Of a stretch of 64,000 bases of DNA, positions 14,103 through 56,667 are shown piece after piece (the stretch's first letter is position 1; every line of letters begins with the position of its first letter). A model generated the notes under the pieces. It had not been told where the DNA came from and searched no databases. It worked only from the letters and a program-made list of their open reading frames with translations. The translations under genes were made by a program, and so were the position numbers. Source of the stretch: Hyphomicrobiales bacterium (lineage in GTDB: Bacteria > Pseudomonadota > Alphaproteobacteria > Rhizobiales > Rhizobiaceae). Where the stretch lies: the NCBI GenBank assembly GCA_900472785.1, contig UCJH01000020.1, positions 64,388 through 128,387 of the forward strand, read 5' to 3'.

Positions 14103-14345
14103 GCCGAAAATCTCCTCGTGCTCTGTCCGCGATGCGCCTGCCGCCGATCCGTCAGGCCGCTGAAGTCCGGAGGGACGCTACTGCATAATGGATCGGATCG
14201 GAATCGATATATTGCGTTGGATCTCGCCTTGCCAAAGGTTCTGGACGAGAAGACTGTTGGCAACAATGCTTCGCTTTGATGATTTTCATTCCTCAAGATC
14301 GTTCACGCGCTATGCTGGGGGCTTGAACAGCAGATGCGAGCCGCG

Positions 14346-14615
14346 ATGACAGAACCAGAGACCGATCAACTTCTGGAGCGAATGACGATCATGGGTGATC
14401 TCGATGGCGCTTCCTTTCTTCCGTGGATCCGACGCCATGCCACCAAGCTCGGGCTATCGCACGCCATATCGCACTCAGGTCCCGACCGGATCGAACTTGA
14501 GATTGCGGGGCCGGAAGCGTTGATCGACATGATGGAGGTTGGATGTTCTCTGGGTCCGATCGAGGTGTGGGTGGAGAAAATTGAACGCAAAGCGATTGTC
14601 GGGAAAACACGATAG
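14346..14615 (+). CDS. Acylphosphatase-like protein lacking catalytic residues
   Basis: An 89-residue protein with acylphosphatase length and layout: RMTIMGDLDGASFLPWI aligns with the G-x-V-Q-G-V-x-F-R loop, then ATKLGL, IELEIAGPEALIDMM and LGPIEVWVEKIE. The catalytic Arg of the loop is Leu here, the Gln is Asp, and the usual N..DG Asn segment reads SHSGPDR. The protein is therefore probably not a phosphatase and may be a binding pseudoenzyme. In-frame ATG 14334 is an alternative start. It is monocistronic, 164 bases before the oxygenase operon. Confidence 0.7.
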   Translation: MTEPETDQLLERMTIMGDLDGASFLPWIRRHATKLGLSHAISHSGPDRIELEIAGPEALIDMMEVGCSLGPIEVWVEKIERKAIVGKTR

Positions 14616-14779: not shown

Positions 14780-15427
14780 ATGCCATCCGATACGACCGGC
14801 TTTTGGACGCCCGTCGCCCTTTCAGCGGATTTGCCTGCGGGAACCGTGATTCCGGCGCGGACGCCTGCGGGATCGGTCGCCTTGTGGCGCAGCGAAGCGG
14901 GACGCCTGGCGGCATCGGCGGATCGCTGTCCGCACCGTGGAATGCGCCTGTCGCACGGGTTCGTCCGCGGCGAGGCACTATCCTGCATCTATCATGGTTG
15001 GAGCTATGCGCAGGCCGGAAACTGTCTGCGCATCCCGGCCCATCCGGGGCTCACGCCGCCGGAGACCATCCGCGTTGCCATCCATGAGGTAGCGGAGGCG
15101 GACGGCGTGATCTGGGTGGCTGCGGGCGTGCCTGCGTCGAAGCCGCCGAGGCTTGACGGCTTGACGCCGCTGCGCTCGCTGACGGTGCTCGCCGGCAAAG
15201 ACGCGATCGAGACCGCAGCCGGTGGAAAGACGAGCCCCGACGGCCTTGTCGAAACCGCCGCCGGCGCAGGCGGCGTATGGCTACTCGCCGCGGATGACGG
15301 CCAGACGCTGGTCCATGTCCTGGTGAGGGATGATGCCGGCACCAAAGACCGCATCGCTGCATCGCGAGCTGCGGAAAGCCTGCGCCGCAGGGCCGAGAAT
15401 CTTCAGCGGGAGGGGATCGTGCAATGA
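14780..15427 (+). CDS. Stand-alone Rieske [2Fe-2S] protein of a split oxygenase
   Basis: A 215-residue cytoplasmic iron-sulfur protein. The N-terminal half is an oxygenase-type Rieske domain: FWTPVALSADLPAG, then the ligands in CPHRGMRLSHG and CIYHGW (Cys-x-His ... Cys-x2-His), then NCLRIPAHPG. No mononuclear-iron motif (D-x2-H-x4-H) follows. The last ~90 residues (ending TLVHVLVRDDAGTKDR and an alpha-helical tail) are unassigned. ATG 14780 is chosen from the Rieske alignment and a GGAAAG upstream. It overlaps the next gene, which has the complementary catalytic domain, by 4 bases. I infer it supplies electrons to that subunit, as NdmD's Rieske domain does for NdmC. Confidence 0.88.
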   Translation: MPSDTTGFWTPVALSADLPAGTVIPARTPAGSVALWRSEAGRLAASADRCPHRGMRLSHGFVRGEALSCIYHGWSYAQAGNCLRIPAHPGLTPPETIRVAIHEVAEADGVIWVAAGVPASKPPRLDGLTPLRSLTVLAGKDAIETAAGGKTSPDGLVETAAGAGGVWLLAADDGQTLVHVLVRDDAGTKDRIAASRAAESLRRRAENLQREGIVQ

Positions 15428-16269
15428 CCGCTCAAGCGATGATCGACGAATGGTATCCGGTCGGGCTTTTCAGCCAGCTTCAGCCGGCCGGCCGACAGAC
15501 GGCGCTGATGGGCGAACCGATTGTGGTGTCCTCCGATGCTGACGGCAACGCAACGGTGACCGGCGGAAACGGCCGGAGCCTGCCGGTGCTGGTACGGTAT
15601 GGCCACGTCTGGTCGTCCCTCGGGCAACCGAAAAAAGCGCTGTTTCCGATCCCGGAGGCCGATCAGCCCGGACGGCGCTTCGTCGATGTCGGCGCGGTGC
15701 GCGTGCGCTGCTCGCCGTTGCGAGCCGTCGAGAACTTCCTTGATATCGCCCATTTTCCCTTCGTGCACACCGATATCCTCGGTGCCGAGCCCCATACGGA
15801 AGTGCAGAACTACAAGGTGGAAATCCGCGAAGATGTCGACGAGGTCTGGGCAACGCAGGTGAAATTCTACCAGCCGCAGGCAGCGAAATCGGCTGCCGGA
15901 GGGATCACCACGGAATATATGTACCGCGTCCCCGCCCCCACCTGCTCAGTGCTCTACAAGACCTGCCCGCCGCGCCCCAGCGAATGGGACGTGATCACGC
16001 TCTTCGTACAGCCGCTGGCGGAGGACCTCTGCGACGTCTGGCCTTGGATGGCGCTGTTCGACGACGATACCTCAATGACCGACCTCATCCATTTTCAGCA
16101 GACGATCTTCCTGCAGGATCGCTCGATCCTGGAAAACCAGATCCCGCGACTTCTGCCGCTCGATCCCGGCATGGAAATCCCGACCCGGGCGGACCTGACA
16201 TCGATTGCGTATCGCCGCTGGCTGAAGCGCCGCAACTATACCTATGGCGCACAGTTGGTGGCGCAATGA
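15424..16269 (+). CDS. Ring-hydroxylating oxygenase catalytic subunit without Rieske ligands (NdmC-like)
   Basis: A 281-residue protein with the mononuclear non-heme iron site of Rieske oxygenases in ENFLDIAHFPFVHTDIL (Asp, His, His: D-x2-H-x4-H). The third ligand is probably an acidic residue further on. The N-terminal 75 residues keep outer parts of a Rieske domain (EWYPVGLFSQL, LMGEPIVV, LPVLVRYGHVWSSLG), but the loops bearing the two Cys and two His ligands are absent. Size and architecture match NdmC, the purine N7-demethylase subunit that borrows a Rieske centre from a partner. Four-base overlaps with the Rieske and GST genes imply a stoichiometric complex. Confidence 0.85.
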   Translation: MTAQAMIDEWYPVGLFSQLQPAGRQTALMGEPIVVSSDADGNATVTGGNGRSLPVLVRYGHVWSSLGQPKKALFPIPEADQPGRRFVDVGAVRVRCSPLRAVENFLDIAHFPFVHTDILGAEPHTEVQNYKVEIREDVDEVWATQVKFYQPQAAKSAAGGITTEYMYRVPAPTCSVLYKTCPPRPSEWDVITLFVQPLAEDLCDVWPWMALFDDDTSMTDLIHFQQTIFLQDRSILENQIPRLLPLDPGMEIPTRADLTSIAYRRWLKRRNYTYGAQLVAQ

Positions 16270-16925
16270 AACTCTACGACTACATTCTCTCGCCCAGTTG
16301 CTACAAGGTTCGTCTGATGGCGGCGCTGACCGGGGTGAAGCTCGACCTGCAGCCCGTTGATTTCCATCCCGGCCTCGAACATCGCGGCCCGGAATTGCTG
16401 GCACTCAATCCCGCGGGTTCTATCCCGATTTTGAAGGACGGCGACCTTATCCTGACTGAATCCTCGGCGATCCTCGTCTATCTCGCGGCAAAGGCTGCTG
16501 CGGAATGGCTGGCCGGCGACAAGCCGGAGGAAGCGGCCCGCGTCCAGCAATGGCTGTCCTTCTCCGGCCGGCTCACGACAAGTCTCGGCGGGGCGCGTCT
16601 GCATGAGATGCTGCTGCGACCCGGGGATATCGACGCGCTGCAGGCCCAAGGGATCTCCGCCCTTCGCGAACTGGAGGCCGGCCTTGTCGAGCAGAGCCTG
16701 CGCGGCCGGCGCTTTGTCGCAGCCGATCGCCCGACCGTGGCGGATATCGCCTGTTTTCCCTACGTGGCGCTTGCTCCGGACGGCGGCGTCTCGCTCGATC
16801 CCTATCCCGCTATCCGGCTTTGGTCGCGTGCACTGCGGTCCCTGGATGGTTTCATCGAGATGCCCGGCATCCATCGGCTGCACGAATTGAAGCCCGAACC
16901 GCTTATCGAAACAGGCGAGGCATGA
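16266..16925 (+). CDS. Glutathione S-transferase family protein (NdmE-like context)
   Basis: A 219-residue GST-fold protein. The N-terminal thioredoxin-like domain starts MKLYDYILSPSCYKVRLMAA, with LNPAGSIPILKDGDLILTES (cis-Pro and Glu/Ser glutathione contact). A helical C-terminal domain has FVAADRPTVADIACFPYVAL. ATG 16266 overlaps the oxygenase stop by 4 bases. In the NdmCDE complex a GST homologue (NdmE) holds the Rieske-less oxygenase against its electron donor. The same gene neighbourhood here suggests a structural role rather than detoxification, although ordinary GST catalysis cannot be excluded. Confidence 0.88.
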   Translation: MKLYDYILSPSCYKVRLMAALTGVKLDLQPVDFHPGLEHRGPELLALNPAGSIPILKDGDLILTESSAILVYLAAKAAAEWLAGDKPEEAARVQQWLSFSGRLTTSLGGARLHEMLLRPGDIDALQAQGISALRELEAGLVEQSLRGRRFVAADRPTVADIACFPYVALAPDGGVSLDPYPAIRLWSRALRSLDGFIEMPGIHRLHELKPEPLIETGEA

Positions 16926-16926
16926 G

Positions 16927-18297
16927 ATGACCGGCACGCTCCTGAAAAACTGCGCCGCCGTGATCGTCAATGATGGCAAAGGTCCGGTCGTGCGGCGCGA
17001 TATTGACCTGCTGACCGACGGCCCGGCGATCAAGGCCATCGGCGAAAATTTGATCGCGCCCGTCGGCACCACGGTTCAGGATGCCACCGGCTGGTTCGTC
17101 TATCCCGGCCTCGTTAACACCCATCATCACTTCTTCCAGTGCTTCGTGCGCAACCGTGCCGATCTCGACTGGACGAAACTTTCTGTCATCGAATGGCTGG
17201 ACCGCATCTATCCGATCTTCTCGCAGCTCAATGAGGAATGCTTCTATCACTCCTCCGTCACGGCGATGGCAGAGATGATCAAGCATGGTTGCACCACGGC
17301 CTTCGACCACCAATACAATTTCCCGCGCCATGCTGGAAAGCGCTTGATCGATCGACAGTTCGAGGCGGCCGATCTCTTCGGCATGCGGTTTCATGCCGGG
17401 CGCGGCGGCAACACGCTGCCGAAATCGGAAGGCTCCACGATCCCCGACGAGATGCTGGAAACGACGGACGAGTTCATTTTCGACTGTGCCCGCCTGATCG
17501 ATACCTATCACGACGCCAGCCCCTTCAGCATGCGCCAGGTCGTGGTTGCGCCCTGCCAGCCGGTCAATTGCTACCGCGAGACCTTCGTCGAATCCGTGGC
17601 GCTGGCGCGCGATCGCGGCGTCATGATGCATACCCATGTCGGCGAAGGCGAAAGCCCGGTCATTCTCGCCCGCCACGGCAAGCGCACCGTCGATTATCTC
17701 GAAGCGCTTGGCTTCGCAGGCCCCGACGCCTTTTATGCCCATTGCTGGGAGCTGACCCATGAGGAACTGAGGTCGATGGCGGCAAGTGGCACCGGCATTT
17801 CGCACTGCCCGGAGCCGGTCTATCTGGTCGGTGCGGAAGTGACCGATATTCCCGCCATGGCCGCCTTTGGCCTGCGCGTCGGTATCGGCTGCGACGGCGC
17901 GGCCTCGAACGACAATTCCAACCTCATGCACTGCCTGCACTCGGCCTATATGCTGCAGTGCCTCGTCTCTTCCACGCGCGCCCACCCCGTGCCGCCGCCA
18001 GTCGATTTTCTCGGATATGGAACCACCGGTGGCGCGAGCCTTCTCGGGCGTGCGGACATCGGCCGGCTTGCGCCAGGCATGGCCGCCGACCTGTTTGCCA
18101 TCGACACCCGCCGCATGGATTACGTCGGCACACGACATGATCCCTTAAGCCTCATTCCGCGCGTCGGCATCGGCATGGCAACCGACATGACCATGATCAA
18201 CGGCCGCATCGTCTGGCAGAAGGGCGAATTCGTCGGGCTCGACGAAGCCAAACTCTTTGCCGATGCGGAAGCGGCGCTTGCAACCGTAGACTTCTAA
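16927..18297 (+). CDS. Amidohydrolase, 8-oxoguanine/guanine deaminase-like
   Basis: A 456-residue TIM-barrel metal-dependent deaminase/hydrolase of the AtzA/TrzN-8-oxoguanine deaminase group. Metal ligands are PGLVNTHHHFFQ (His-x-His), MMHTHVGEGES (His), FYAHCWEL (His) and GIGCDGAASND (Asp). MRFHAGRGG and VVVAPCQPV correspond to segments of 8-oxoguanine deaminase, but the HCP-x-S-N loop reads HCPEPVYLVG here, so specificity has probably changed. It starts 1 base after the GST stop. It would deaminate the purine or pterin-like product of the oxygenase, or prepare its substrate. Confidence 0.87.
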   Translation: MTGTLLKNCAAVIVNDGKGPVVRRDIDLLTDGPAIKAIGENLIAPVGTTVQDATGWFVYPGLVNTHHHFFQCFVRNRADLDWTKLSVIEWLDRIYPIFSQLNEECFYHSSVTAMAEMIKHGCTTAFDHQYNFPRHAGKRLIDRQFEAADLFGMRFHAGRGGNTLPKSEGSTIPDEMLETTDEFIFDCARLIDTYHDASPFSMRQVVVAPCQPVNCYRETFVESVALARDRGVMMHTHVGEGESPVILARHGKRTVDYLEALGFAGPDAFYAHCWELTHEELRSMAASGTGISHCPEPVYLVGAEVTDIPAMAAFGLRVGIGCDGAASNDNSNLMHCLHSAYMLQCLVSSTRAHPVPPPVDFLGYGTTGGASLLGRADIGRLAPGMAADLFAIDTRRMDYVGTRHDPLSLIPRVGIGMATDMTMINGRIVWQKGEFVGLDEAKLFADAEAALATVDF

Positions 18298-18320
18298 AAA
18301 CCAAAAAAGAGGGAACTGAC

Positions 18321-19421
18321 ATGCTGAACAATCTGACCCGCAGAACATTGATGAAGGGCCTTGCCGCCACCGGTCTCGCCGGCACGCTCGGCAGCCGTCT
18401 TGCCTTGGCGGCAGACGAGCCGCTGGGCATCACACTCGTGATCCCGTCACCCGTCGGCGATGTCGGCTGGGGCCATGCGCTGGCCGCCGGTCTTGAGCCG
18501 ATCAAGGCCGCTTACGGTGACAAGGTTAAGGTCACCATCCTGGAGAATATCGCGGAAGGCCCGGATGCCGACCGCATCATGAACAAGACCGTTGCCGACG
18601 GGAACAAGTTTCTGATCGCCGGCTCCTTCGGCTACCAGAACGGCGCGCTGCAGATTGCCCGCCGCGACCCCAGCGTCACCGTGCTGCATGCCTCCGGCTT
18701 CCAGGTCGCGCCGAATTTCAGTCCTTTTGCCGCGAAATATTTCCAGGGCACATACCTGCTCGGCATGGCGGCGGCGGCCCTGTCGAAGACCGGCAAGCTG
18801 GGCTCGGTCTCGGCCTTTGCCATCCCGGAACTGATTACCTCTATCAACGCCTTCACGCTCGGCGCCCAGACCGTCAACCCGGACATCGAAGTCTCGGTCG
18901 TCTGGGTCAATTCGTGGTTCGACCCGGCCAAGGAGCAGGAGGCCGCCAAGGCGCTGATCGCGCAGAAATGCGACGTGATCTTCTCCAACGCGCAGGATAC
19001 GCCTTCCGTCATCGCCGCTTGCGAGGAAGCGGGCGTCTATGCCTTCAACCTCAACTCATCGATGAAGAAATATGCCGAGAAGACCTACCTCGGCTGCGTC
19101 GCGACGGATTGGTCGCCCTTCTTCAAGGCGTCGGTCGAGGACCATCTTGCCGGCACCTTCAAGGGCGCCAACGCCTTCCTCGGCGTCGCCGAAAAGGTTG
19201 TTGAAGTGGTCGATTGGAACCCCGCTATCCCGGCGGAAACCATGACGAAGATCAAGGAACTCGAGACCAAGATCGCCAATGGCAGCTTCTCGCCATTCAC
19301 CGGGCCCATCACCAAGGCCGACGGCAGCGAAGGCGTCGCGGCCGGCGCAACCCTGCCCGATGCCGATATCATCGCCATGAACTGGCACGTCAAGGGCGTC
19401 GCCACGCCGCTGCCGAAGTAA
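18321..19421 (+). CDS. BMP family ABC transporter substrate-binding protein (nucleobase/nucleoside type)
   Basis: A 366-residue periplasmic lipoprotein-family homologue (BMP/PnrA/Med family), here with a twin-arginine-like leader (LTRRTLMKGLAATGLAGTLG) rather than a lipobox. The ligand domain shows VIPSPVGDVGWGHALAAGL, FLIAGSFGYQNG and ATDWSPFFKASVED. BMP proteins bind purine nucleosides or nucleobases in characterised cases. It begins 23 bases after the amidohydrolase gene and leads directly into its ATPase, so it probably captures the purine-like compound handled by the oxygenase and deaminase. Confidence 0.9.
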   Translation: MLNNLTRRTLMKGLAATGLAGTLGSRLALAADEPLGITLVIPSPVGDVGWGHALAAGLEPIKAAYGDKVKVTILENIAEGPDADRIMNKTVADGNKFLIAGSFGYQNGALQIARRDPSVTVLHASGFQVAPNFSPFAAKYFQGTYLLGMAAAALSKTGKLGSVSAFAIPELITSINAFTLGAQTVNPDIEVSVVWVNSWFDPAKEQEAAKALIAQKCDVIFSNAQDTPSVIAACEEAGVYAFNLNSSMKKYAEKTYLGCVATDWSPFFKASVEDHLAGTFKGANAFLGVAEKVVEVVDWNPAIPAETMTKIKELETKIANGSFSPFTGPITKADGSEGVAAGATLPDADIIAMNWHVKGVATPLPK

Positions 19422-19426
19422 GCAGC

Positions 19427-20950
19427 ATGACCGCACCCCTTCTCTCGCTACGCGGCATTTCGAAGAGCTACGGCCAGATCCACGCCAACCAGGCGATCGA
19501 TCTGGATGTGGCGCCGCAGTCGATCCATGCGATTTTGGGGGAAAACGGCGCAGGAAAATCGACGCTGATGAAGCTTATCTACGGCGTCGAGCAACCGGAC
19601 GACGGCAGCGTTGTCTGGGAAGGACAACCCCTGCGTCTCGCCTCCCCCGCGGAAGCGAGGCGCAAGGGCATCGGCATGGTCTTCCAGCACTTCTCGCTTT
19701 TCGAGACCCTGACGGTGCTTGAAAATATCCGGCTGGTCGTGCCGGGCCGGAAAGCCGATCTCAGGGAACGCATCCGGACGCTCGGGCGGGAGTTCGGCCT
19801 TGACGTCGATCCGCTTGCCCATGTGCACGCTTTGTCCGTCGGCGAGCGCCAGCGGGTCGAGATCGTCCGCTGTCTGATGACCAATCCGAAACTTTTGATC
19901 CTCGACGAGCCGACCTCCGTCCTGCCGCCGCAACTGGTGGAAAAGCTTTTCGATACATTGCGTCGCCTGCGCGACGGCGGCGTGTCGATCCTCCTGATCT
20001 CCCACAAGCTGGAGGAAATCCGGGCGATCTGCGACCGGGCGACGATCCTGCGTGGCGGACGCGTGACCGGAGACGTCGATCCGCGCGACCACGATGCCCA
20101 TGATCTTGCCCGCATGATGATCGGCCGCGACATGCCGGCGCCGATCCCGGCACTGCCCCGGTCGGGCGGCGAAAAGCGGCTGGAGATCATTGGTCTGGAC
20201 CACCGGCCCGAAGATCCCTTCGCCGTCTCGCTCTCCGGCATCAGCCTTGAAGTTCGGGCCGGCGAGATTCTTGGTATCGCCGGCATTTCCGGCAACGGCC
20301 AGAGCGAGCTTGCCGCCCTGATATCCGGCGAGACCGTGCTGGGACGCGAGCAGCGCGACCGCATTTACATGATGGGAACGGATGTCGGCGGGTGCGATGC
20401 CGCAGCGCGACGCGAGCTCGGGTTTGCTTTCGTTCCCGAAGACAGACTGGGGCGCGGCGCCGTGCCGGAAATGTCGCTCGTCCTCAACAGCCTGCTGACA
20501 GCCCATCCGCTTGATCTGTTGCGGCATGGTCTTGTCGACACGACGCGGGCAACGGCGTTCACCAGGGAGTGCATTCTTCAAAACGATGTCCGCACGCCAG
20601 GCCCGAACGCCGAGGCCGGAACGCTTTCCGGCGGCAATCTGCAAAAGTTCATCGTCGGCCGGGAGATCATGCTGTCTCCGAAACTGCTGTTCGTCGCCCA
20701 GCCGACCTGGGGCGTCGATATCGGCGCCGCATCCGCCATCCGCAACCGTCTGGTTGCCTTGCGCAATCAAGGCATGGCCATTCTGGTCATTTCCGAGGAG
20801 CTTGAAGAGTTGTTCGAGCTTTGCGATTCCATCCAGGTTCTGCATCACGGCACCTTGAGCCTGCGGCTCGTTACAAAGGAGACGCGACCCGAAGAGATCG
20901 GTCGTTACATGATCGGGGCGCAAGCCCCCGTCGAGAAAGCCTATATATGA
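19427..20950 (+). CDS. ABC transporter ATP-binding protein, two-domain nucleoside/sugar (NupA/RbsA) type
   Basis: A 507-residue tandem ATPase. Domain 1 has Walker A GENGAGKST, signature LSVGERQRVEIVRCL and Walker B LLILDEPTSVL. Domain 2 has GISGNGQSE in place of a full Walker A, signature LSGGNLQKFIVGREI, and a modified Walker B FVAQPTWGVD (no catalytic Glu). This asymmetry is normal for RbsA/NupA-type ATPases, where one site is catalytic. ATG 19427 lies 5 bases after the binding-protein stop. It overlaps the first permease by 4 bases. Confidence 0.93.
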   Translation: MTAPLLSLRGISKSYGQIHANQAIDLDVAPQSIHAILGENGAGKSTLMKLIYGVEQPDDGSVVWEGQPLRLASPAEARRKGIGMVFQHFSLFETLTVLENIRLVVPGRKADLRERIRTLGREFGLDVDPLAHVHALSVGERQRVEIVRCLMTNPKLLILDEPTSVLPPQLVEKLFDTLRRLRDGGVSILLISHKLEEIRAICDRATILRGGRVTGDVDPRDHDAHDLARMMIGRDMPAPIPALPRSGGEKRLEIIGLDHRPEDPFAVSLSGISLEVRAGEILGIAGISGNGQSELAALISGETVLGREQRDRIYMMGTDVGGCDAAARRELGFAFVPEDRLGRGAVPEMSLVLNSLLTAHPLDLLRHGLVDTTRATAFTRECILQNDVRTPGPNAEAGTLSGGNLQKFIVGREIMLSPKLLFVAQPTWGVDIGAASAIRNRLVALRNQGMAILVISEELEELFELCDSIQVLHHGTLSLRLVTKETRPEEIGRYMIGAQAPVEKAYI

Positions 20951-22059
20951 CGTCCTGGTCCCTTGCGTCTCTTCCCGTCCTTGTCCGCCGCGAGCGCGCC
21001 TCGCTGACGGCTGCCGTCGTCGCGCCCGTCGTTGCACTGGGAACGGCACTCGCCCTCAATCTCGGCCTCTATGTCCTGATGGGTCGCGATCCCCTCGCGG
21101 TCGCCTATGCGATGCTTTTCGAGCCGTTCCTCTCCTGGGCGTCGTTTTCGGAAGTGCTTTTGAAGGCAGGCCCGCTGCTTCTTATCGCCCAAGGGCTCGC
21201 GATCGGATTTCGGGCCAAGGTCTTCAATATCGGCGCCGAAGGCCAGTTCATTCTCGGCGCGATCTTCGCTTCGGCCATTCCGGTCTGGTTTCCGCAGGCA
21301 ACGGGCCAATGGATCTGGCCGGCGATGCTGTTGCTCGGAGCTATCGGCGGCGCTCTTTGGGCATCGATCACCGCCTTCTGGCGCGTGCGGCTCAATGCCA
21401 ACGAAATCCTCGTTTCGCTGATGCTGAGCCTGGTTGCGGCACAAGTCCTGAACTACCTGCTGCTCGGTCCATGGAAAGATCCGAACGGCTTCAACTTTCC
21501 CCAGTCGGTGATGTTCCAGTACGACGCGATGGTGCCGACCCTGATTGCCGGTACCCGCGTCAACGTTTCCTTCCTCATCACGCTCGTTTTGTCGGTTGCG
21601 GCCTTTGTCTTCATGCAAAAGAGCTTCGCCGGCTATAAGCTGCAGGTCGGTGGTCTCGCGCCTCGGGCTGCCGGCTATGCCGGCTTCAAGGAAGGATGGG
21701 CGATCTGGCTGTCGCTGCTGATCGGCGGGTTTGCCGCGGGGCTTGCCGGCGCAGCCGAAGTTGCGGGTCCGCTTGGCCAGCTGCAGCGCTCGATCTCGAG
21801 CGGCTACGGTTACGCGGCCATCATCGTTGCCTATCTCGGCGGGCTGCATCCGATCGGCATCGTCGTCTCGGCGCTGGTCATGGCCGTGATCTATATCGGC
21901 GGCGACAATGCCATGGTCTCTGCGAACCTGCCGATCGCCGCCGTCCGGGTCTTCCAGGGCAGCCTGCTGCTCGCCTATCTCATTGCCGTCGCCTTCGTAC
22001 GCTATCGCCTCGAATGGCCGGGAGCAGTCAAGACGACCACATACCGGAGCTTGTCATGA
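20947..22059 (+). CDS. ABC transporter permease, NupB/BmpB type
   Basis: A 370-residue inner-membrane protein with about eight to ten hydrophobic segments, of the branched-chain/ribose-type permease family used by BMP systems. Typical segments are AEGQFILGAIFAS, LNANEILVSLMLSLVAAQ and GLAGAAEVAGPLGQL. ATG 20947 overlaps the ATPase stop, and its own stop overlaps the next permease by 4 bases. It forms the channel with the following gene product. Confidence 0.92.
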   Translation: MTSWSLASLPVLVRRERASLTAAVVAPVVALGTALALNLGLYVLMGRDPLAVAYAMLFEPFLSWASFSEVLLKAGPLLLIAQGLAIGFRAKVFNIGAEGQFILGAIFASAIPVWFPQATGQWIWPAMLLLGAIGGALWASITAFWRVRLNANEILVSLMLSLVAAQVLNYLLLGPWKDPNGFNFPQSVMFQYDAMVPTLIAGTRVNVSFLITLVLSVAAFVFMQKSFAGYKLQVGGLAPRAAGYAGFKEGWAIWLSLLIGGFAAGLAGAAEVAGPLGQLQRSISSGYGYAAIIVAYLGGLHPIGIVVSALVMAVIYIGGDNAMVSANLPIAAVRVFQGSLLLAYLIAVAFVRYRLEWPGAVKTTTYRSLS

Positions 22060-22967
22060 ACGCCATCGAGTTCATCCTTGCCGGCATGCTCGCGGCCGCA
22101 ACACCGTTTCTTCTGGCGGCGCTCGGCGAATTGGTGGTCGAGCGCGCCGGCGTCCTGAACCTCGGCGTCGAAGGGCTGATGGCCTTTGGCGCGGTGCTTG
22201 CATTCATTGTCGTCTACCATGGCGGCGGGCATTTTCTGGGTTTCCTTGCAGCGGGCATCGCCAGCGCGGCGCTTTCCCTGATCTTCGCCTTCGTCACGCT
22301 CGGGTTTCGGGCCAATCAGGTGGCGGCAGGCCTTGCCATCGGCATCCTTGGACAGGGCCTCTCTGCACTTTTCGGCAAGACCTATGAGAGCCTGACCATC
22401 AAGGGACTTCCAAAGCTTTCGATCCCCGGGCTTTCGGAAATCCCGGTGGTTGGCGGTCTTTTCACGCAGGATGTCGTCGTCTGGATTTCACTCGCCGCAA
22501 CCCTCGGCATCTGGGTGATATTTGCCTATACAAAGCTCGGTCTCGTCATCCGCGCCGTCGGCGAGAACCCGAAGGCGGCCCATGCCATCGGCTATTCCGT
22601 CGTCACCGTCCGCGTCCTTGCAATCGCCTTTGGAGGCGCGATGGCAGGCTTTGCCGGCGCCTATGCTGCGGTTGTCTACACCCCACTCTGGGCCGACGGT
22701 ATGATCGCCGGGCGCGGCTGGATCGCCATTGCGCTTGTCGTCTTCGGCACCTGGATGACCGGCCGCATCTTCCTTGGCGCCTGCCTGTTCGGCGCTGTCT
22801 CCCTGATGGGTCTGGCCGCCCAGGCAACCGGGCTGGATGTGCCCTCGCAGCTGCTGTCGAGCCTGCCCTATCTCGTCACGATCATCGTGCTCGGCATCAT
22901 CTCCGCCGATCGCCGGCTCTTGAAGCTCAATGGCGTCGCCTCGCTCGGCGAACCCTTCGAGCGCTGA
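22056..22967 (+). CDS. ABC transporter permease, NupC/BmpC type
   Basis: A 303-residue inner-membrane permease; the start FILAGMLAAATPFLLAALGE, GVLNLGVEGLMAFGAV and LGFRANQVAAGLAIGILG are characteristic of the second permease of BMP-linked nucleoside/nucleobase importers. It is the last gene of the operon that begins with the Rieske protein at 14780. The gene ends 32 bases from the convergent rsgA stop. Confidence 0.92.
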   Translation: MNAIEFILAGMLAAATPFLLAALGELVVERAGVLNLGVEGLMAFGAVLAFIVVYHGGGHFLGFLAAGIASAALSLIFAFVTLGFRANQVAAGLAIGILGQGLSALFGKTYESLTIKGLPKLSIPGLSEIPVVGGLFTQDVVVWISLAATLGIWVIFAYTKLGLVIRAVGENPKAAHAIGYSVVTVRVLAIAFGGAMAGFAGAYAAVVYTPLWADGMIAGRGWIAIALVVFGTWMTGRIFLGACLFGAVSLMGLAAQATGLDVPSQLLSSLPYLVTIIVLGIISADRRLLKLNGVASLGEPFER

Positions 22968-29955: not shown

Positions 29956-32403
29956 ATGACTCAGAAACTTGTGATCATCGGCAATGGGATGGCGCCGGGT
30001 CGGATGCTGGAAGAGCTGTTCGAGCGGTCGGCTGGGCTTTATGAGGTGACGATTTTCAATGCGGAGCCTCGGGTCAACTACGACCGGATCATGCTGTCGC
30101 CGGTTCTGTCAGGCGAGAAGGCCTATGAGGACATCGTCATCCATGGCGACGACTGGTATCGCGACCATGGGGTGACGCTGCATCGCGGCGCGCGGGTCAG
30201 CGGCATCGATCGGGCTGCGAAGACCGTAACGGCCGAGAACGGCATCACCGCACCTTACGACCGGCTGGTGATCGCCACCGGTTCGCTGCCCTTCATCATC
30301 CCGGTGCCGGGCCACCAGCTGCCGGGCGTGCTTGCCTATCGCGATCTCGACGATGTCGAGAAGATGCTCGCCATCGCCAGGAACAAGGGCAAGGCGATCG
30401 TCATCGGCGCCGGCCTTCTGGGGCTGGAGGCCGCCTATGGCCTGAAGCGCCAGGGCATGGACGTGACGGTCGTGCACCTGATGCCGACGATCATGGAACG
30501 CCAGCTCGATCCGGCCGCCGCCTATCTTCTGGAAAAGGCGCTGACCGAGCGCGGCATCGCCATCATCACCAAGGCCGACACCAAGGCGATCCTCGGCACC
30601 ACCCGTGTCGAGGGCGTCGAACTCAAGGACGGTCGCATTCTCGACGGCGAGATGGTCGTCATGGCCGTCGGCATCCGTCCGGCGTCGGCGCTGGCGAAAG
30701 AGGCCGGCATCGCCGTCAACCGCGGCATCGTCGTCGACGACGGCATGATGACCTCGGACCCGAACATCTACGCGCTCGGCGAATGCGCCGAACACCGCGG
30801 CACCTGCTACGGGTTGGTCGCGCCGCTTTATGAGAGCGCCCGCATCCTTGCCGACCGGCTGTGCGGCGGCAGCGGCGAATATGCAGGCTCGGTCGTCAAC
30901 ACCAAGCTCAAGGTCACCGGCATCAACCTGTTCTCGGCCGGCGATTTCGCCGAGGGAGACGACCGCGAGGAGATCGTGCTGCGCGATGCGACGGCCGGTG
31001 TCTACAAGCGGCTGGTCTTGAAGAATGACCGGATCATCGGCGCGGTGCTCTATGGCGAGACGGCGGATGGGTCGTGGTACTTCGACCTGATGAAGCGCGG
31101 CGTGCCGGTCACGGAAATGCGCGACACGCTGATCTTCGGCCAGGCCTACCAGGGCGGTTCGCCGCTCGATCCTGCGGCGGCGGTTGCGGCCCTGCCGGAC
31201 GATGCGGAGATCTGCGGCTGCAACGGCGTGTGCAAGGGCAAGATCACGGCGGCGATCACAGGCAAGGGCCTGACGACGCTCGACGACGTGCGGGCGCATA
31301 CCAAGGCCTCGGCCTCCTGCGGCTCCTGCACCGGGCTTGTCGAGCAGCTGATGGCGGTGACGCTCGGCGACGCCTACAATCCGGCCGCCGTCACGCCGAT
31401 GTGCAAATGCACCGGGCTTGGCCATGACGACGTCCGCCGGCTGATCAAGGCCAAGGGCCTGAAGACCATTCCGGCGGTGATGCAGGAACTGGAATGGAAG
31501 ACGTCGTGCGGCTGCGCCAAGTGCCGGCCGGCGCTCAACTACTATCTCGTCTGCGACTGGCCGGACGACTATGCCGACGACTACCAGTCGCGCTTCATCA
31601 ACGAGCGCGTCCATGCCAACATCCAGAAGGACGGCACCTATTCGGTGGTGCCGCGCATGTGGGGCGGGGTGACGAGTGCGTCGGAGCTGCGCGCGATTGC
31701 CGACGTCGTCGACAAGTTCGAGATCCCGATGGTCAAGGTCACCGGCGGCCAGCGCATCGACCTGCTCGGCATCGAGAAGGAGGACCTGCCGGCCGTCTGG
31801 GCCGATCTCGGCCAGGCCGGCTTCGTCTCGGGCCAGGCCTATGCCAAGGGGCTTCGCACGGTCAAGACCTGCGTCGGCTCCGACTGGTGCCGGTTCGGCA
31901 CGCAGGATTCGACCGGGCTCGGCATCCGCATCGAGAAGTTCATGTGGGGTTCGTGGACGCCGGCCAAATTGAAGCTGGCAGTCTCGGGCTGTCCGCGCAA
32001 CTGCGCCGAGGCGACCTGCAAGGACATCGGCGTCATCTGCGTCGACAGTGGCTTCGAGATCCACTTCGCCGGGGCCGCCGGCCTCGACATCAAGGGGACG
32101 GAGGTTCTCGGCCTGGTGAAGACCGAGGACGAGGCGCTCCAATACATCGTGGCGCTGACCCAGATGTATCGCGAGCAGGGCCATTATCTTGAGCGCATCT
32201 ACAAATGGGCGAAACGCATCGGGCTGGCCGAAATCCGCCGCCAGATCATGGACGATGCCGACAAGCGCCAGGGCTACTACCAACGCTTCGTCTTCTCCCA
32301 GACATTCGCCCAGGTCGACCCTTGGTCCGAACGCGTCTCCGGAAAACACAAACATGAGTTCAAACCGATGGCGACGGTTGCGTATTCGGAGGCGGCGGAG
32401 TGA
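29956..32403 (+). CDS. nirB: Assimilatory nitrite reductase (NADH), large subunit
   Basis: An 815-residue siroheme enzyme reducing nitrite to ammonium. The N-terminal FAD/NAD(P) module (residues 1-~400) has VIIGNGMAPGRMLEEL, VIGAGLLGLEAAYGL and an NADH fold. BFD-like [2Fe-2S] modules follow (CGCNGVCKGKI, SCGSCTGLV, then TSCGCAKCRPALNYYL). The C-terminal siroheme/[4Fe-4S] part has TCVGSDWCRFG and SGCPRNCAEATCKDIG, which supply the four Cys. Full length. It overlaps nirD by one base. Confidence 0.96.
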   Translation: MTQKLVIIGNGMAPGRMLEELFERSAGLYEVTIFNAEPRVNYDRIMLSPVLSGEKAYEDIVIHGDDWYRDHGVTLHRGARVSGIDRAAKTVTAENGITAPYDRLVIATGSLPFIIPVPGHQLPGVLAYRDLDDVEKMLAIARNKGKAIVIGAGLLGLEAAYGLKRQGMDVTVVHLMPTIMERQLDPAAAYLLEKALTERGIAIITKADTKAILGTTRVEGVELKDGRILDGEMVVMAVGIRPASALAKEAGIAVNRGIVVDDGMMTSDPNIYALGECAEHRGTCYGLVAPLYESARILADRLCGGSGEYAGSVVNTKLKVTGINLFSAGDFAEGDDREEIVLRDATAGVYKRLVLKNDRIIGAVLYGETADGSWYFDLMKRGVPVTEMRDTLIFGQAYQGGSPLDPAAAVAALPDDAEICGCNGVCKGKITAAITGKGLTTLDDVRAHTKASASCGSCTGLVEQLMAVTLGDAYNPAAVTPMCKCTGLGHDDVRRLIKAKGLKTIPAVMQELEWKTSCGCAKCRPALNYYLVCDWPDDYADDYQSRFINERVHANIQKDGTYSVVPRMWGGVTSASELRAIADVVDKFEIPMVKVTGGQRIDLLGIEKEDLPAVWADLGQAGFVSGQAYAKGLRTVKTCVGSDWCRFGTQDSTGLGIRIEKFMWGSWTPAKLKLAVSGCPRNCAEATCKDIGVICVDSGFEIHFAGAAGLDIKGTEVLGLVKTEDEALQYIVALTQMYREQGHYLERIYKWAKRIGLAEIRRQIMDDADKRQGYYQRFVFSQTFAQVDPWSERVSGKHKHEFKPMATVAYSEAAE

Positions 32404-32744
32404 TGGACATGAAAACCAACTGGATCGCAATCGGCGACATCTCCGATATTCCGCTGCGCGGCGCCCGCTGCGTCAAGACCCCGCAGGGCAAGATCGCCGT
32501 CTTCCGCACGGCCGAGAACGAGGTCTTCGCCATCGAGGACCACTGCCCGCACAAGGGCGGCCCCCTCAGCCAGGGCATCGTCCACGGCAAGGCCGTCACC
32601 TGCCCCCTCCACAACTGGGTCATCTCGCTCGAAACCGGAAAGGCGCTCGGTGCGGACGAAGGGGCAGTCAACACCATCGCCGTTCGCAACGAGGATGGTG
32701 CACTCTTCATCGCATTCGAAAGCCTGTTGATGGCGGCGGAATAG
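32403..32744 (+). CDS. nirD: Nitrite reductase (NADH) small subunit
   Basis: A 113-residue Rieske-fold subunit of NirBD. Unlike enterobacterial NirD, which lost the cluster, it keeps both ligand pairs: HCPHKGGPLSQG (Cys-x-His) and TCPLHNW (Cys-x2-His). It may therefore carry a [2Fe-2S] centre. ATG 32403 overlaps the nirB stop by one base; ATG 32409 and GTG 32400 are alternatives. In related genomes nasA (nitrate reductase) and cysG often follow, but not here. Confidence 0.93.
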   Translation: MDMKTNWIAIGDISDIPLRGARCVKTPQGKIAVFRTAENEVFAIEDHCPHKGGPLSQGIVHGKAVTCPLHNWVISLETGKALGADEGAVNTIAVRNEDGALFIAFESLLMAAE

Positions 32745-46669: not shown

Positions 46670-46889
46670 CCATCTTTACCAGAAAGTAAAAATATGCGCC
46701 AAATCGGCAACACTCCGAACCGTACAGCCTCCCGATCCTGCCTTTCAGATATTGCCGGGTTGCCCTGTCGAAACCGGAAATCTCCCCTTTCTTCCTAGGC
46801 GGCACGATGCACCCCACAATGTCCAGTTGACAATTTCCCGCGAAGTTTCAACATACGGCGCATCGAGACGGGCAGCGGTGGGAGGACTT

Positions 46890-49800
46890 ATGTCTATGCG
46901 CGCGTTCATCGGGTTTTCAGCCTTTTTTCTGATTGCTCTTGCCACCAGCCAGCCGGCTGTCGCGACGGATCCGAGCCGTGACATCGTCACGACGCAGGAT
47001 GGCGACTATTTCGGGTTCGACCTGCGCACCGTGCAGGATGTCAGTCTCGACCAGTGCAAGAGCACATGTCTCGATGACCAGTCGTGCCGTGCCTTCACCT
47101 ACAATCCGAAGGTGAAATGGTGCTTCCTCAAAACCGACTTCAATCAGTTGAATACGTTTCCGGGCGCCATAGCCGGTAAAGTGGTGAAGGTGGATGGCGA
47201 TCCCGATATCGGGGCTGCCCCGAAACTCGATTTCGTCTCCGACGAACTGCTCCAGCAGGCGCGCGACTTGAAGGCGGGGCTTGTGCTGACGGCCGGCCAG
47301 CAGATGATGGGCTATGAAGGCCTGCAGGCGATCGCCCGTGCCAATCTTGGTCTTTCGCAGATTGAACAGGCCGTCAACACGCTGAAGGGCGCGCTCGCCA
47401 TTACCCCGGACGACGACGCGCTGTGGATTGAAACAGCCCGTGCCGGCAACCGGGCATCCATCAACTCGAGCCTTGCCGCAGAAGCGCAATTGAGCGCGCT
47501 CAACGGCTATCAGCTCAGCCGCTCGACGCGGAGTCGCGCCGAGGCGCTGGCCGTGCTGGCGGAAGCGTTCCGCAACAGCGAAAATTTCCGTTCCGCGCTC
47601 AGCGCCTACAAGGCAAGCCTGGCGCTTGTCGATTCCCAGACCGTTCTGGCTGCCTATGCCGACCTGAAATCGCGACAGGGCTTCCGTATGGTCGGCAACA
47701 CGATTGATGCCGACAGCGCCAATCCGCGAGCCTGCGTTCAGTTTTCCGAGCCGCTGGTGAAAATCGGCGCCGACTACGCGCCGTTCGTTACGATCGATGG
47801 CGCCGCTCCCAAGGGCGTCGAAGCCAAGGGCAGCGAAATCTGCGTCGAGGGCCTGACCCATGGCCAACGCTATAAGCTCTCCTTCCGCGCCGGCCTGCCC
47901 TCCTCCGTCGAGGAGCCGCTGGATGCGCAGGTTGATCTGAACATCTACGTGCCGGACCGTTCGGCCAGCGTCCGTTTCACCGGAGACAGCTTCGTCTTGC
48001 CGGGCACGGCGCGTCGCGGCATCCCGATCGTTTCGGTCAACACCCAGAGCGCCGACCTCAAGCTCTATCGGGTCGGCGACCGCAGCATCGCAAACCTTCT
48101 GACGAATTCGCAGTTCCTGACCCAGATGGACGGATACAGCGCGCAGCGCATCCAGGACGAGAGCGGCGAACTCGTCTGGCAGGGCAAGATCGATCTGCCG
48201 ACCGAGCTCAACAAGGACGTGATCACCAGCTTTCCCGTCGATGAAGCGCTGCCGCAGCGCAAACCCGGCGTCTATGTCCTGACCGCAATATCGTCGAGCG
48301 CCCGTACGGACGAATGGGAAGCCAAGGCAACCCAATGGTTCGTGGTCTCCGATATCGGCGTTTCCACCTATGCGGGCACGGACGGACTGAATGTCTTTGC
48401 GCGGTCGCTGGCCAGCGCCAAGCCGCTTGCCGGCGTGACGCTCGAGCTTCTCGCCAAGAACAATGAAATCCTCGGAACGGCGACAACGGACGGCGAAGGC
48501 CGCGCCACGTTCACCGCTGGCCTGATGCGCGGCACGGCCGCCATGGCGCCGGCGGTCATCACGGCCCGCGACGGCGACAAGGACTACGTGTTTCTTGACA
48601 TGACGCGTGCCGGCTTCGATCTGTCGGACCGCGGCGTCACCGGCCGCGCGGCCCCCGGCGCGATCGACGTTCTGACCTGGACGGAACGCGGCATCTACCG
48701 TGCCGGCGAAACCGTGCACGTCTCGGCGCTGGCCCGCGACAGCGAAGCGAATGCCGTCGAGAAACTGCCTTTGACCTTCGTCTTCCTGCGTCCGGATGGT
48801 GTTGAGGATCGTCGCATCGTGAGCGATGGCGGCGTTGCCGGCGGACATACGCTCGATCTGCCGCTGCAGACCAATTCGATGCGCGGCACCTGGACCATGC
48901 AGATATTCACCGACCCCAAGGGCACGTCGATTGCCGAAAAACAGTTCATGGTCGATGATTTCGTGCCGGACCGGATCGAGTTCGACCTGACGAGCCAGGC
49001 CAAGGAGATCGACCCGGAGGCGGCGACACCTGTTTCCGTCGATGGCCGCTATCTTTACGGCGCACCCGCCGCCGGGCTGGAAATCGAAGGCGACGTCGCC
49101 CTGAAGCCGACCCGCAGCAGCGCTGCCTTTCCGGGTTATGTCTTTGGTCTTGCCGACGAGGAGGCAAGCGAAGACAGCCGCACGACGCTGGAAGGTCTTG
49201 ATGTTCTCGACGAGAACGGCAAAACGACGTTCGACGTCACGCTTGGCGAGGTTCCCTCGACGACCCAGCTCCTCAATGCCGATATCGTGGTGCGCATGAA
49301 GGAAGCCGGCGGGAGGGCGGTGGAACGGACGCTGACCCTGCCCGTCAAATCCACTGGACCGACGATCGGGATCAAGCCGGAATTTTCCGGCGAACTTGCC
49401 GAGAATTCGATCGGCAATTTCCGCGTCATCTCCGTCGATGCGGCGGGCCAGAAACAGGCCATGAAGGGTCTTGCCTGGAAGCTTGTCAGCGTCGAGCGCA
49501 ATTACCAATGGTACCGGGAGGGTACGTCCTGGCGGTATGAACCGGTGACATCGACCAAGCTCATCGCCAATGGAACCGTCGATGCAGGCCTGGATGGCGC
49601 GGAGATTGCGGTCCCCATCACCTGGGGCCGCTACCGGCTCGAGGTCGAAACGGCGGCCATCGATGGTCCGACGTCGAGCGTCGAGTTCGATGCCGGCTGG
49701 TACGTGGAGGCCACATCGACGGAAACGCCGGACGGTCTCGAAATCGCTCTGGACAAGGAAAGCTATGCCGTCGGCGAGACCGCGAGGCTCAAGGTTAGTT

Positions 49801-54972: not shown

Positions 54973-56667
54973 CTAGCCGAATTTCTGTCTCGACCAGTCG
55001 TCCAGACGTTCGTCAAGCTGCTGGCGTTCATCCTCTGAGAGACCCGTCAGAATACCCTGAAGCTGTTTGAGCGCCTCTTCACGCCCTTCGCGAGACGCCA
55101 GCGTATACCAGAAGGCGGCCTCCATGGGGTCGGCCTTGATGCCACCCTTACCTTCGGCATAGATATTTCCAAGGTTGATATAGGCGGCAACAGCGCCGAG
55201 GCGGGCGGCGCGTGAAAAGAGGTCACGCGCGATCACATTGTCCTTCTTGACGCCGGTTCCCTTCATATAAAGGGAGGCGAGATTGACCATCGAACCCCGG
55301 TCGCCGAGATTGGTGCCTCTCTGGAAATAATCTATGGCCTTGTCCATATCCGCCTTTGTGCCCAATCCCTTCATATAAATGAGGCCAATCTTGTCGAGGG
55401 CCCAGGACCAGTTCTGTTCCGCAGCGAGCGACAACCATTTCAAAGCCTGCGCGTAATCCTGCTTTACGCCCTGACCCTGCATATACATGTAGCCGACATT
55501 GCTCATGTCTTCGACATGGCCGCGTTCCGCCGCATAGAGGTAGAGTTCGAATGCCTTCGGCAGATCCTTTTCGACCCCAAGGCCCTTTCGATAGAGATTG
55601 CCCATGTTGTGATAAGCGGCAAGGCTGCCGGCCTTCATGGCAATCTCATTGAGATCGCGGGCTTCCTCGCCGCGGCCGGCCTTGTCCAGGGCGCGTGCCA
55701 GAAGCGTTTTGAACCGCATGTTCGGCGGATCCTGCTTGACGGCCGCTTCGCATGCCGGAATGGCAATGTTCGGATCGAGGTTGGCGTATTCGACGCTGGG
55801 TCCGATCCGGTCTGGATCCGACGGATGGGCGGCGGCGAGATCACAAGGGCTGGCTTGTATGATCGCCTTCTCGCCTGCGCGGGGCTGCAGAACGATATCC
55901 GTCACGAGCGACGAATTTTCCCAGGGAAGCTGCTTGCCCTCGGTTTCCTTGACGACTTTCGCGCGTGCGCGCTTGAAGATCGTCTCGATCGATTGGCCGG
56001 GCTCGACCAGAGTCTCGGCGAGAGCCGTGGTGTAAGGACTGTTGCCGCCACTGCCATCCTGCGCGACTGCGCCGGGTGAGGTCGAAAAAGCGATCAGCGT
56101 GCCCGTCTTGTTGCTTGCAATCCTTGCAAGGCCGCGTGTCGTGCCGCCGCCGATGGACCGGGTCTTGGATTTACCGCTCCAGAACGGGTTGTCGCGGCAG
56201 GCATCGAGAATGAAAATCAACGATCCGGCCTGGGAGGCCTCGAACTGCCGCACCACTTCATTGGCAGCGATGGCAAACCATGGCAGATCCTCGACGGAAC
56301 CCAATGCGGCATCGACCGGTACGAGATAGTTCTCTTCGTTTGCCTGAATGCCATGGCCAGCAAAATAGATGACGATGATATCGTCCGGCTGGATCCGGTT
56401 GCGGAAATCGACCATGGCGCGGCCCATCGCCGTCTTGTCGGCGTTGGCCAGCAAGGTGACATCGAAGCCGACCTTGCGCAGCGCCCCCGATATCAACTCG
56501 GCATCGGCCACGGAGTTCTTGAGAACCGGCAGTTTCTCGTAGGTCTTGTTGCCGATCACCAGTGCCAGTTTTCGAACCGGCTTTTCAGTCTCTGCCGCAG
56601 AAACAGTGCCGGTCAGAAGGACGACCGCTGTAAAAATCGATAACATCAGCAATCTGATGTATGTCAC
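54973..56667 (-). CDS. Secreted caspase-like (peptidase C14) protein with Sel1 repeats
   Basis: A 564-residue protein with signal peptide (LLMLSIFTAVVLLTGTVSAA). The caspase domain (about 33-250) has LALVIGNKTYEKLPVLKN, the catalytic His in VIYFAGHGIQ and the catalytic Cys in FILDACRDNPF, with an Asp-rich, Lys/Arg-type specificity region likely. The C-terminal half has Sel1-like repeats (YHNMGNLYRKGLGVEKD, MSNVGYMYMQGQGVKQD, MVNLASLYMKGTGVKKD). Export argues against an intracellular death effector. A second protein of the same architecture lies at 59194-61284. Confidence 0.9.
   Translation of the reverse strand: MTYIRLLMLSIFTAVVLLTGTVSAAETEKPVRKLALVIGNKTYEKLPVLKNSVADAELISGALRKVGFDVTLLANADKTAMGRAMVDFRNRIQPDDIIVIYFAGHGIQANEENYLVPVDAALGSVEDLPWFAIAANEVVRQFEASQAGSLIFILDACRDNPFWSGKSKTRSIGGGTTRGLARIASNKTGTLIAFSTSPGAVAQDGSGGNSPYTTALAETLVEPGQSIETIFKRARAKVVKETEGKQLPWENSSLVTDIVLQPRAGEKAIIQASPCDLAAAHPSDPDRIGPSVEYANLDPNIAIPACEAAVKQDPPNMRFKTLLARALDKAGRGEEARDLNEIAMKAGSLAAYHNMGNLYRKGLGVEKDLPKAFELYLYAAERGHVEDMSNVGYMYMQGQGVKQDYAQALKWLSLAAEQNWSWALDKIGLIYMKGLGTKADMDKAIDYFQRGTNLGDRGSMVNLASLYMKGTGVKKDNVIARDLFSRAARLGAVAAYINLGNIYAEGKGGIKADPMEAAFWYTLASREGREEALKQLQGILTGLSEDERQQLDERLDDWSRQKFG

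Follow-up and report, generated by a model that had tools for sequence, protein, structure and literature searches.

An Operon for a Probable Split Rieske Oxygenase

A stretch of 64,000 nucleotides of contig UCJH01000020.1 from the Hyphomicrobiales bacterium assembly GCA_900472785.1 (here called the window) was analyzed. It contains an operon which very probably encodes a split Rieske oxygenase of the NdmCDE kind. The catalytic subunit has no Rieske domain, and the [2Fe-2S] centre is predicted to reside on a separate small protein encoded by the preceding gene. Judged by homology, the window system is NdmCDE-like and its equivalent of NdmD consists of the Rieske (N-terminal) part alone. This assignment is based on the relationship of three window proteins to a trio from a Klebsiella plasmid (locus L233) and on the published roles of NdmC, NdmD and NdmE.

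Papers given by PMC number are cited here from excerpts. The excerpted review describes NdmC as being without a Rieske cluster, NdmD as carrying it and NdmE as required (PMC4408171). Locus L233 encodes an NdmB-like protein (623 bits to PDB 6icl), an oxygenase of 281 amino acids, a Rieske-reductase of 585 amino acids and a glutathione S-transferase (GST). The comparison was made via this homologous locus and not with the proteins of Pseudomonas putida CBB5 themselves. It revealed identities of 46% over 271 residues between the window oxygenase and the NdmC-like protein, of 35% over 153 residues between the window Rieske protein and the NdmD-like Rieske-reductase, and of 41% over 205 residues between the window GST and the NdmE-like protein. 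The kinship to NdmC, NdmD and NdmE suspected in the original prediction, an earlier reading of the same DNA, was thereby recovered. The operon comprises the following genes:

14334..14615, +, acylphosphatase-fold protein, presumed catalytic residues lost, neighbour of the Rieske gene (PF00708)
14780..15427, +, free-standing Rieske [2Fe-2S] subunit, 215 amino acids (PF00355, 68.2 bits)
15424..16269, +, Rieske-less oxygenase subunit, 281 amino acids (VanA_C PF19112, 67.8 bits)
16266..16925, +, GST-fold protein, NdmE-like (GST_N PF02798)
16927..18297, +, amidohydrolase, 8-oxoguanine-deaminase-like, own subfamily (Amidohydro_1; NF006055, 356.7 bits)
18321..19421, +, BMP-family substrate-binding protein (Bmp PF02608, 145 bits)
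19427..20950, +, ABC importer ATPase with two ABC domains (ABC_tran PF00005 in two stretches)
20947..22059, +, ABC importer permease 1 (BPD_transp_2 PF02653)
22056..22967, +, ABC importer permease 2 (BPD_transp_2 PF02653)

The original prediction had described eight tightly coupled genes at 14780-22967. All eight open reading frames were found there on the + strand, joined by 4-base overlaps or gaps of at most 23 bases. The Rieske and oxygenase genes as well as the oxygenase and GST genes overlap by 4 bases, and a single base separates the GST and deaminase genes. Gaps of at most 23 bases join the genes for the BMP protein, the ATPase (start codon chosen by us) and the two permeases. With a Bmp protein, an ATPase of two ABC domains and two BPD_transp_2 permeases the BMP-type ABC importer is complete, as had been claimed. 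The GST-fold protein and the separate small Rieske donor, accompanied by uptake and deamination functions, were likewise present as described. The earlier gene list lacked the ninth gene at 14334-14615, directly upstream, which is a member of the conserved unit. None of the nine genes encodes a reductase.

Conservation of the Gene Trio

Two sets of loci were compared. The first consists of the best 80 of at least 507 oxygenase relatives in named genomes; as these 80 are the closest relatives, their counts describe the window's own type. The wider set holds 77 oxygenase places (tblastn score of at least 200, more than 450 bases) in 67 loci and was drawn from order and plasmid loci L039-L115, 10 of which (among 77) were left out for full-length, distant or broken oxygenases. 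The two sets overlap in some contigs and were never summed.

Co-occurrence of the trio in other genomes had been one touchstone of the original prediction. In all 80 named loci, Rieske and GST genes were located within 4.5 kb of the oxygenase gene; 78 of them also had the acylphosphatase-like gene at this distance. A BMP protein was encoded within 9 kb in 73; the remainder are contigs ending early or loci lacking the gene. With start codons assigned by script, the identical 4-base overlap was found at the Rieske-oxygenase junction in 70 and at the oxygenase-GST junction in 69 of the 80 loci. The hosts include Rhizobium, Mesorhizobium, Shinella, Martelella, Paracoccus, Rhodobacter, Marivita and others, and plasmid pRL10 of Rhizobium johnstonii 3841 carries the same operon. 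In the wider set, 64 of the 77 oxygenase places had a GST together with either a Rieske protein or an NdmD-like fusion within 4.5 kb. Of the 397 genomes in an order-level sample, 91 had a match to the oxygenase at E 0.001, a count that also takes in distant full-length oxygenases. In a phylum sample the oxygenase profile matched 24 of 398 genomes at E 1e-30, some frames being long enough for full-length oxygenases. The window system is real and conserved across many genomes, as a variant of a rare type already known.

The Oxygenase and Rieske Subunits

No Rieske domain was detected in the oxygenase by Pfam at E 0.001, and the CxH...CxxH pair was present in none of the 80 oxygenases. The hhalign program aligned the protein almost end to end with nine full-length relatives (E 2e-59), the cluster-binding subdomain being absent. 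Only the start of the Rieske domain is retained (38 columns, E 2e-7 in a profile comparison). An alignment over a full Rieske domain with its ligands, which had been named in advance as evidence against a Rieske-less subunit, did not occur. Residues D107, H110, H115 and D232 were invariant in alignments A1 (18 rows) and A4 (44 rows), and the motifs ENFLDxxHxxxxH and IFxQD were each found in 80 of 80 oxygenases. From their positions we take His110, His115 and Asp232 to be the iron triad and Asp107 to be the bridging aspartate of Rieske oxygenases. The structural model of the subunit had its best matches among full-length Rieske oxygenases. By sequence, the oxygenase lost the Rieske cluster and kept the iron triad and the bridging aspartate, which agrees with the mononuclear iron site claimed earlier.

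The 215-residue Rieske protein gave PF00355 as its sole Pfam match at E 0.001. Its four ligands C50, H52, C69 and H72 did not vary in either of two alignments, A2 with 16 rows and A3 with 46, and the pattern CxH-x15-18-CxxH occurred in 80 of 80 Rieske proteins. The stand-alone Rieske protein of the original prediction was thus found with its ligands intact. Its structural model reached a predicted local distance difference test score (pLDDT) of 90.9. In Foldseek searches its best matches were full-length Rieske oxygenases; the TM-score, normalised by query length, reached 0.79, and the root mean square deviations were 4.7 to 8.7 angstrom over the matches listed. With about 122 of the 215 residues, the Rieske domain by itself would be limited to a score of at most about 0.57. 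Because the observed score exceeds this limit, the C-terminal part of the Rieske subunit may be the remnant of a shrunken oxygenase catalytic domain.

Oxygenase and Rieske subunit had their best matches in the same single-chain oxygenases, over complementary parts. In a tree of 41 oxygenase rows the Rieske-less proteins formed one group versus seven full-length ones (98/99), and so did those of the type with a free-standing Rieske protein (93/85, not a starred branch). The root of this tree is unsure since the outgroup branches are long; one outgroup row, badly placed and with stops, had been removed beforehand. Some full-length oxygenase relatives are located beside BMP importers (L045, L085, L086, L087), two of them also with a guanine-deaminase-like gene (L085, L087). 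The purine context may consequently predate the split. Full-length Rieske oxygenases of a different family within the phylum are flanked by a BMP binding protein on one side and an adenosine-deaminase-like protein on the other (L220, L221, L223, L224); the two of these deaminases that were scanned (L220, L223) scored above the cut-off.

The Acylphosphatase-Like Protein

The protein encoded at 14334-14615 matched PF00708 with 25.3 bits (cut-off 22.5), and 22 of its 26 relatives matched at E 0.01. A profile of the 26 copies found solved acylphosphatases (PDB 1v3z, E 5.5e-6). At the places which we assume, from alignment to 1v3z, to be those of the catalytic Arg and Asn, 1 of 119 copies had Arg and none had Asn; the 119 contain duplicates. 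Where the wider set has a separate Rieske gene, the acylphosphatase-like gene was found alongside at 33 of 38 places; where it has a fusion only, at 0 of 27. In Paracoccus and at L083 it is more distant, behind transporter genes. These sequence data suggest a pseudoenzyme whose presence goes with that of the separate Rieske subunit and which presumably serves as a structural or assembly part.

Electron Supply and Probable Sharing of the Rieske Subunit

An NdmD-type reductase was absent from 10 of 13 chosen split-system genomes (query, the Sinorhizobium reductase half; E at most 1e-10), a sample which excludes the window's own genome, which does hold such reductases. The best PDR/VanB reductase of the latter is encoded on another contig (G000:C45:69334-70278; 35% identity). 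At E at most 1e-20, relatives of it turned up in 8 of 16 chosen genomes that have the system and in 5 of 7 chosen genomes that lack it; one of the last five is a weak match (35% identity). Their occurrence does not follow that of the system, and this reductase was for that reason rejected as a dedicated donor. Reductases of the Rieske oxygenase class are described as moderately promiscuous in the excerpt of PMC12445004.

Six of six examined genomes with two Rieske-less oxygenases (G293, G347, G099, G278, G334, G237) contained one strong Rieske match each (E below 1e-60). Their weaker Rieske matches lie, with one exception, in frames of 344-448 amino acids, as expected of ordinary oxygenases. 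In the wider set, 12 of the 77 oxygenase places had no Rieske gene within 4.5 kb. All 12 belong either to the six genomes above or to G383 and G244, where the Rieske gene is located elsewhere in the same examined stretch. The separate Rieske subunit is probably shareable between catalytic subunits.

The distribution of Rieske genes also bears on the idea that the Rieske protein is a mere ferredoxin-like shuttle for other oxygenases, the Rieske-less subunit using another route or being inactive. Nine places with a Rieske match in the window's genome would suit this idea, as would those oxygenase paralogues that lie away from a Rieske gene. The near-constant 4-base coupling of the Rieske and oxygenase genes, the invariant iron ligands and bridging aspartate and the precedent of NdmC argue against it, and we regard it as very improbable.

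Linked Deaminases and the Substrate

The window amidohydrolase contains the motifs HxH, HTHxGE, AHC and CDGA, and its closest solved relative is an 8-oxoguanine deaminase (7ww2). The earlier assignment as guanine/8-oxoguanine-deaminase-like was in agreement with this, although the protein stays below the NF006055 cut-off (356.7 of 532 bits) and was therefore placed in a separate subfamily. With 8-oxoguanine deaminase (NF006055) and guanine deaminase (TIGR02967) it shares the amidohydrolase family and the place in the operon, and it differs from them by this score. At a threshold of 200 bits, the deaminase slot of the 80 named loci held the window type in 68 cases and guanine deaminase in 4 others, never both. 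Seven of eight scanned guanine-deaminase-like proteins exceeded the TIGR02967 cut-off (L060, L061, L085, L097, L113, L188, L195), the one at L085 adjoining a full-length oxygenase relative. The eighth (L098), clipped by the chosen coordinates, reached 371.9 of 375.4 bits. 8-Oxoguanine deaminases above the NF006055 cut-off were encoded at six loci (L042, L067, L068, L105, L112, L106). At least five switches of deaminase type were counted on the oxygenase tree (16 labelled rows). The common theme of the linked deaminases is a purine base.

A purine substrate is accordingly quite likely. A non-purine N-heterocycle (pterin, triazine or B6-like compound) might be suspected because the transporter genes scored best against models named 'putative B6 ABC transporter' and the amidohydrolase matched triazine hydrolases in PDB. 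The B6 models, however, remained far below their cut-off, the binding protein reaching 86 of 400 bits, and the linked deaminases above cut-off are those for guanine and 8-oxoguanine and, with full-length relatives, adenosine. Such a substrate is hence quite improbable.

For the type of reaction the genes for formaldehyde removal are informative. In the excerpt of the review frmA adjoins ndmABCDE (PMC4408171). A glutathione-dependent formaldehyde dehydrogenase was located beside the system at four of the 77 order and plasmid loci (L044, L078, L079, L083), which points to demethylation. At 300 bits it was absent from all 80 window-type loci, within 10 kb at most. This absence would suit a ring hydroxylation, in which the split oxygenase hydroxylates a purine carbon (e.g., guanine C8) and the deaminase leads to urate or xanthine. 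The similarity of the window deaminase to 8-oxoguanine deaminase, the true 8-oxoguanine deaminases at the six related loci and HpxD, another Rieske oxygenase, which is annotated as a molybdenum-independent xanthine hydroxylase, fit this reaction as well. Against it stand the guanine deaminases in other operons of the same oxygenase clade, the formaldehyde dehydrogenase at the four loci and the nearest characterised relatives, which according to the excerpt are N-demethylases (PMC4408171). Ring hydroxylation thus appears unlikely, and N-dealkylation is the somewhat favoured reaction. On the basis of the related guanine and 8-oxoguanine deaminases and the four formaldehyde dehydrogenase loci, N-demethylation of a methylated guanine-type purine is our best guess, with methylguanine itself a tentative candidate.

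A second kind of Rieske-less oxygenase was observed with another deaminase-like amidohydrolase at L066, L067, L069, L072, L111 and L115 and also at L105 and L106. The first six of these loci also encode a xanthine dehydrogenase-type molybdenum hydroxylase. Aldehyde dehydrogenase and GMC oxidoreductase genes are found near this oxygenase, which perhaps catalyzes the N-dealkylation of purines with longer side chains. On Agrobacterium plasmid pAtCFBP7129a (L043, 1452-8656) a second BMP importer, an amidase and a cytosine deaminase above cut-off are encoded directly upstream of the same operon.

Proposed Function

The original prediction of a three-part oxygenase acting on an imported purine or methylpurine is supported by the conservation of the trio and the ndm-like homology, the formation of a complex, the electron donor and the substrate being inferred. 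Taken together, a split oxygenase that N-dealkylates purines has a better than even chance of being correct. The BMP transporter would import a purine base, with 7-methylguanine as the first candidate. In the trimers of ordinary Rieske oxygenases, the bridging residue contacts the Rieske centre of the subunit next to it, so a separate Rieske subunit could occupy that place. The Rieske subunit would dock on the oxygenase like the neighbouring Rieske domain of such a trimer, and electrons would pass from it through Asp107 to the mononuclear iron. The assembly would be held together by the GST-like protein, perhaps with help from the acylphosphatase-like pseudoenzyme, and a general reductase or ferredoxin would supply the Rieske subunit. 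Oxidative N-demethylation of an N-methylated guanine-type purine would yield the purine and formaldehyde, and the amidohydrolase would deaminate the purine before or after this step.

Several results weigh against the proposed function. Besides the position and distribution of the PDR/VanB reductase, the 12 places without a nearby Rieske gene, the low NF006055 score and the lack of formaldehyde dehydrogenase in the window type, neither deaminase was found at 8 of the 80 named loci. The oxygenase model has a pLDDT below 50 at residues 109-125, which contain both iron histidines. In G237 a second, weaker Rieske match lies in a frame of 186 amino acids (E 5.5e-24). The profile of the C-terminal part of the Rieske subunit gave no significant match to oxygenases (E 0.18 and 0.039), and 1 of 20 column-shuffled controls outscored the E 0.18 result. 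Since the sequence profile gave nothing significant, it is the fold match that suggests the remnant.

A more far-reaching interpretation is that Rieske subunit, GST-like scaffold and acylphosphatase-like pseudoenzyme form a detachable module which supplies several interchangeable Rieske-less heads with electrons, without a dedicated reductase. Both subunits would descend from single-chain oxygenases that lost opposite halves, and the head in the window would demethylate a methylated guanine. In this complete form the interpretation is rather doubtful; if true, it would imply salvage of bases such as 7-methylguanine in rhizobia and Rhodobacterales.

The results outline a broader NdmCDE-like family with a fully freed Rieske domain in rhizobia, Rhodobacterales and others. 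They offer a natural test case of whether one Rieske centre can serve several catalytic subunits, a small four-protein system suited to structure work and a testable candidate route for bacterial reuse of methylated guanines.

Elsewhere in the window a bacterial alpha-2-macroglobulin of 1862 amino acids is encoded at 46752-52337. Two caspase-domain (Peptidase_C14) proteins with Sel1 repeats are encoded on opposite strands a few kilobases apart (54976-56667 and 59194-61281). An assimilatory nitrite reductase NirB (904 bits) at 29956-32741 is followed by a small Rieske-matching open frame, probably NirD.

Comparison with NdmCDE and Other Rieske Oxygenases

The split context described in the original prediction was found, yet the system is less new than was assumed there. 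According to the excerpts, ndmCDE-homologous clusters of unknown function had been noted in Sinorhizobium and Mesorhizobium (PMC4408171), as had scattered ndmC, ndmD or ndmE homologues, also of unknown function, in other bacteria (PMC8055839). The 2015 review terms NdmCDE very unique among Rieske oxygenases in its excerpt (PMC4408171), and an excerpt from 2026 states that the structure of the complex is unsolved (PMC13237722). Neither the form with a free-standing Rieske protein nor a methylguanine demethylase of the NdmCDE-like type was found in the open-access literature searched, most subscription journals lying outside this scope. On the Cupriavidus plasmid p352-3 (L044) an ndm-like cluster occurs with a nucleobase symporter and the formaldehyde dehydrogenase; its oxygenase, Rieske-reductase and GST matches are each in two pieces.

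Intermediate forms were also observed. Sinorhizobium meliloti has a Rieske-reductase of 588 amino acids with two oxygenases, GST and BMP importer. In Paracoccus separate Rieske and PDR/VanB reductase genes adjoin each other, and the locus also contains a BMP importer, the acylphosphatase-like gene and an 8-oxoguanine deaminase. The ndmCDE-like cluster L040 of Sinorhizobium resembles the window in combining oxygenase, Rieske protein, GST and BMP importer; in contrast to the window, its Rieske domain is still fused to the reductase (588 amino acids), its oxygenases are in tandem and an acylphosphatase-like gene is missing.

The single-chain oxygenases SxtT/GxtA and NdmA/NdmB (PDB 6wnc, 6wn3, 6ick, 6icl) share the fold of both window subunits and the matching sequence stretches. 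They carry both centres on one chain, whereas the window splits them between two proteins. NdmCDE, the caffeine N7-demethylase of P. putida CBB5 (excerpts of PMC4408171 and PMC13237722), has in common with the window system the Rieske-less oxygenase, the Rieske centre borne by a partner and the GST homologue. NdmD serves NdmA, NdmB and NdmC, as stated in the excerpt (PMC4408171). In contrast to NdmD, the window Rieske domain is free-standing (215 amino acids), without a fused FMN/NADH/[2Fe-2S] reductase; if a fused reductase is made the criterion, the window system falls outside NdmCDE. Compared with NdmCDE, the window operon adds an acylphosphatase-like partner, its own deaminase and a BMP importer.

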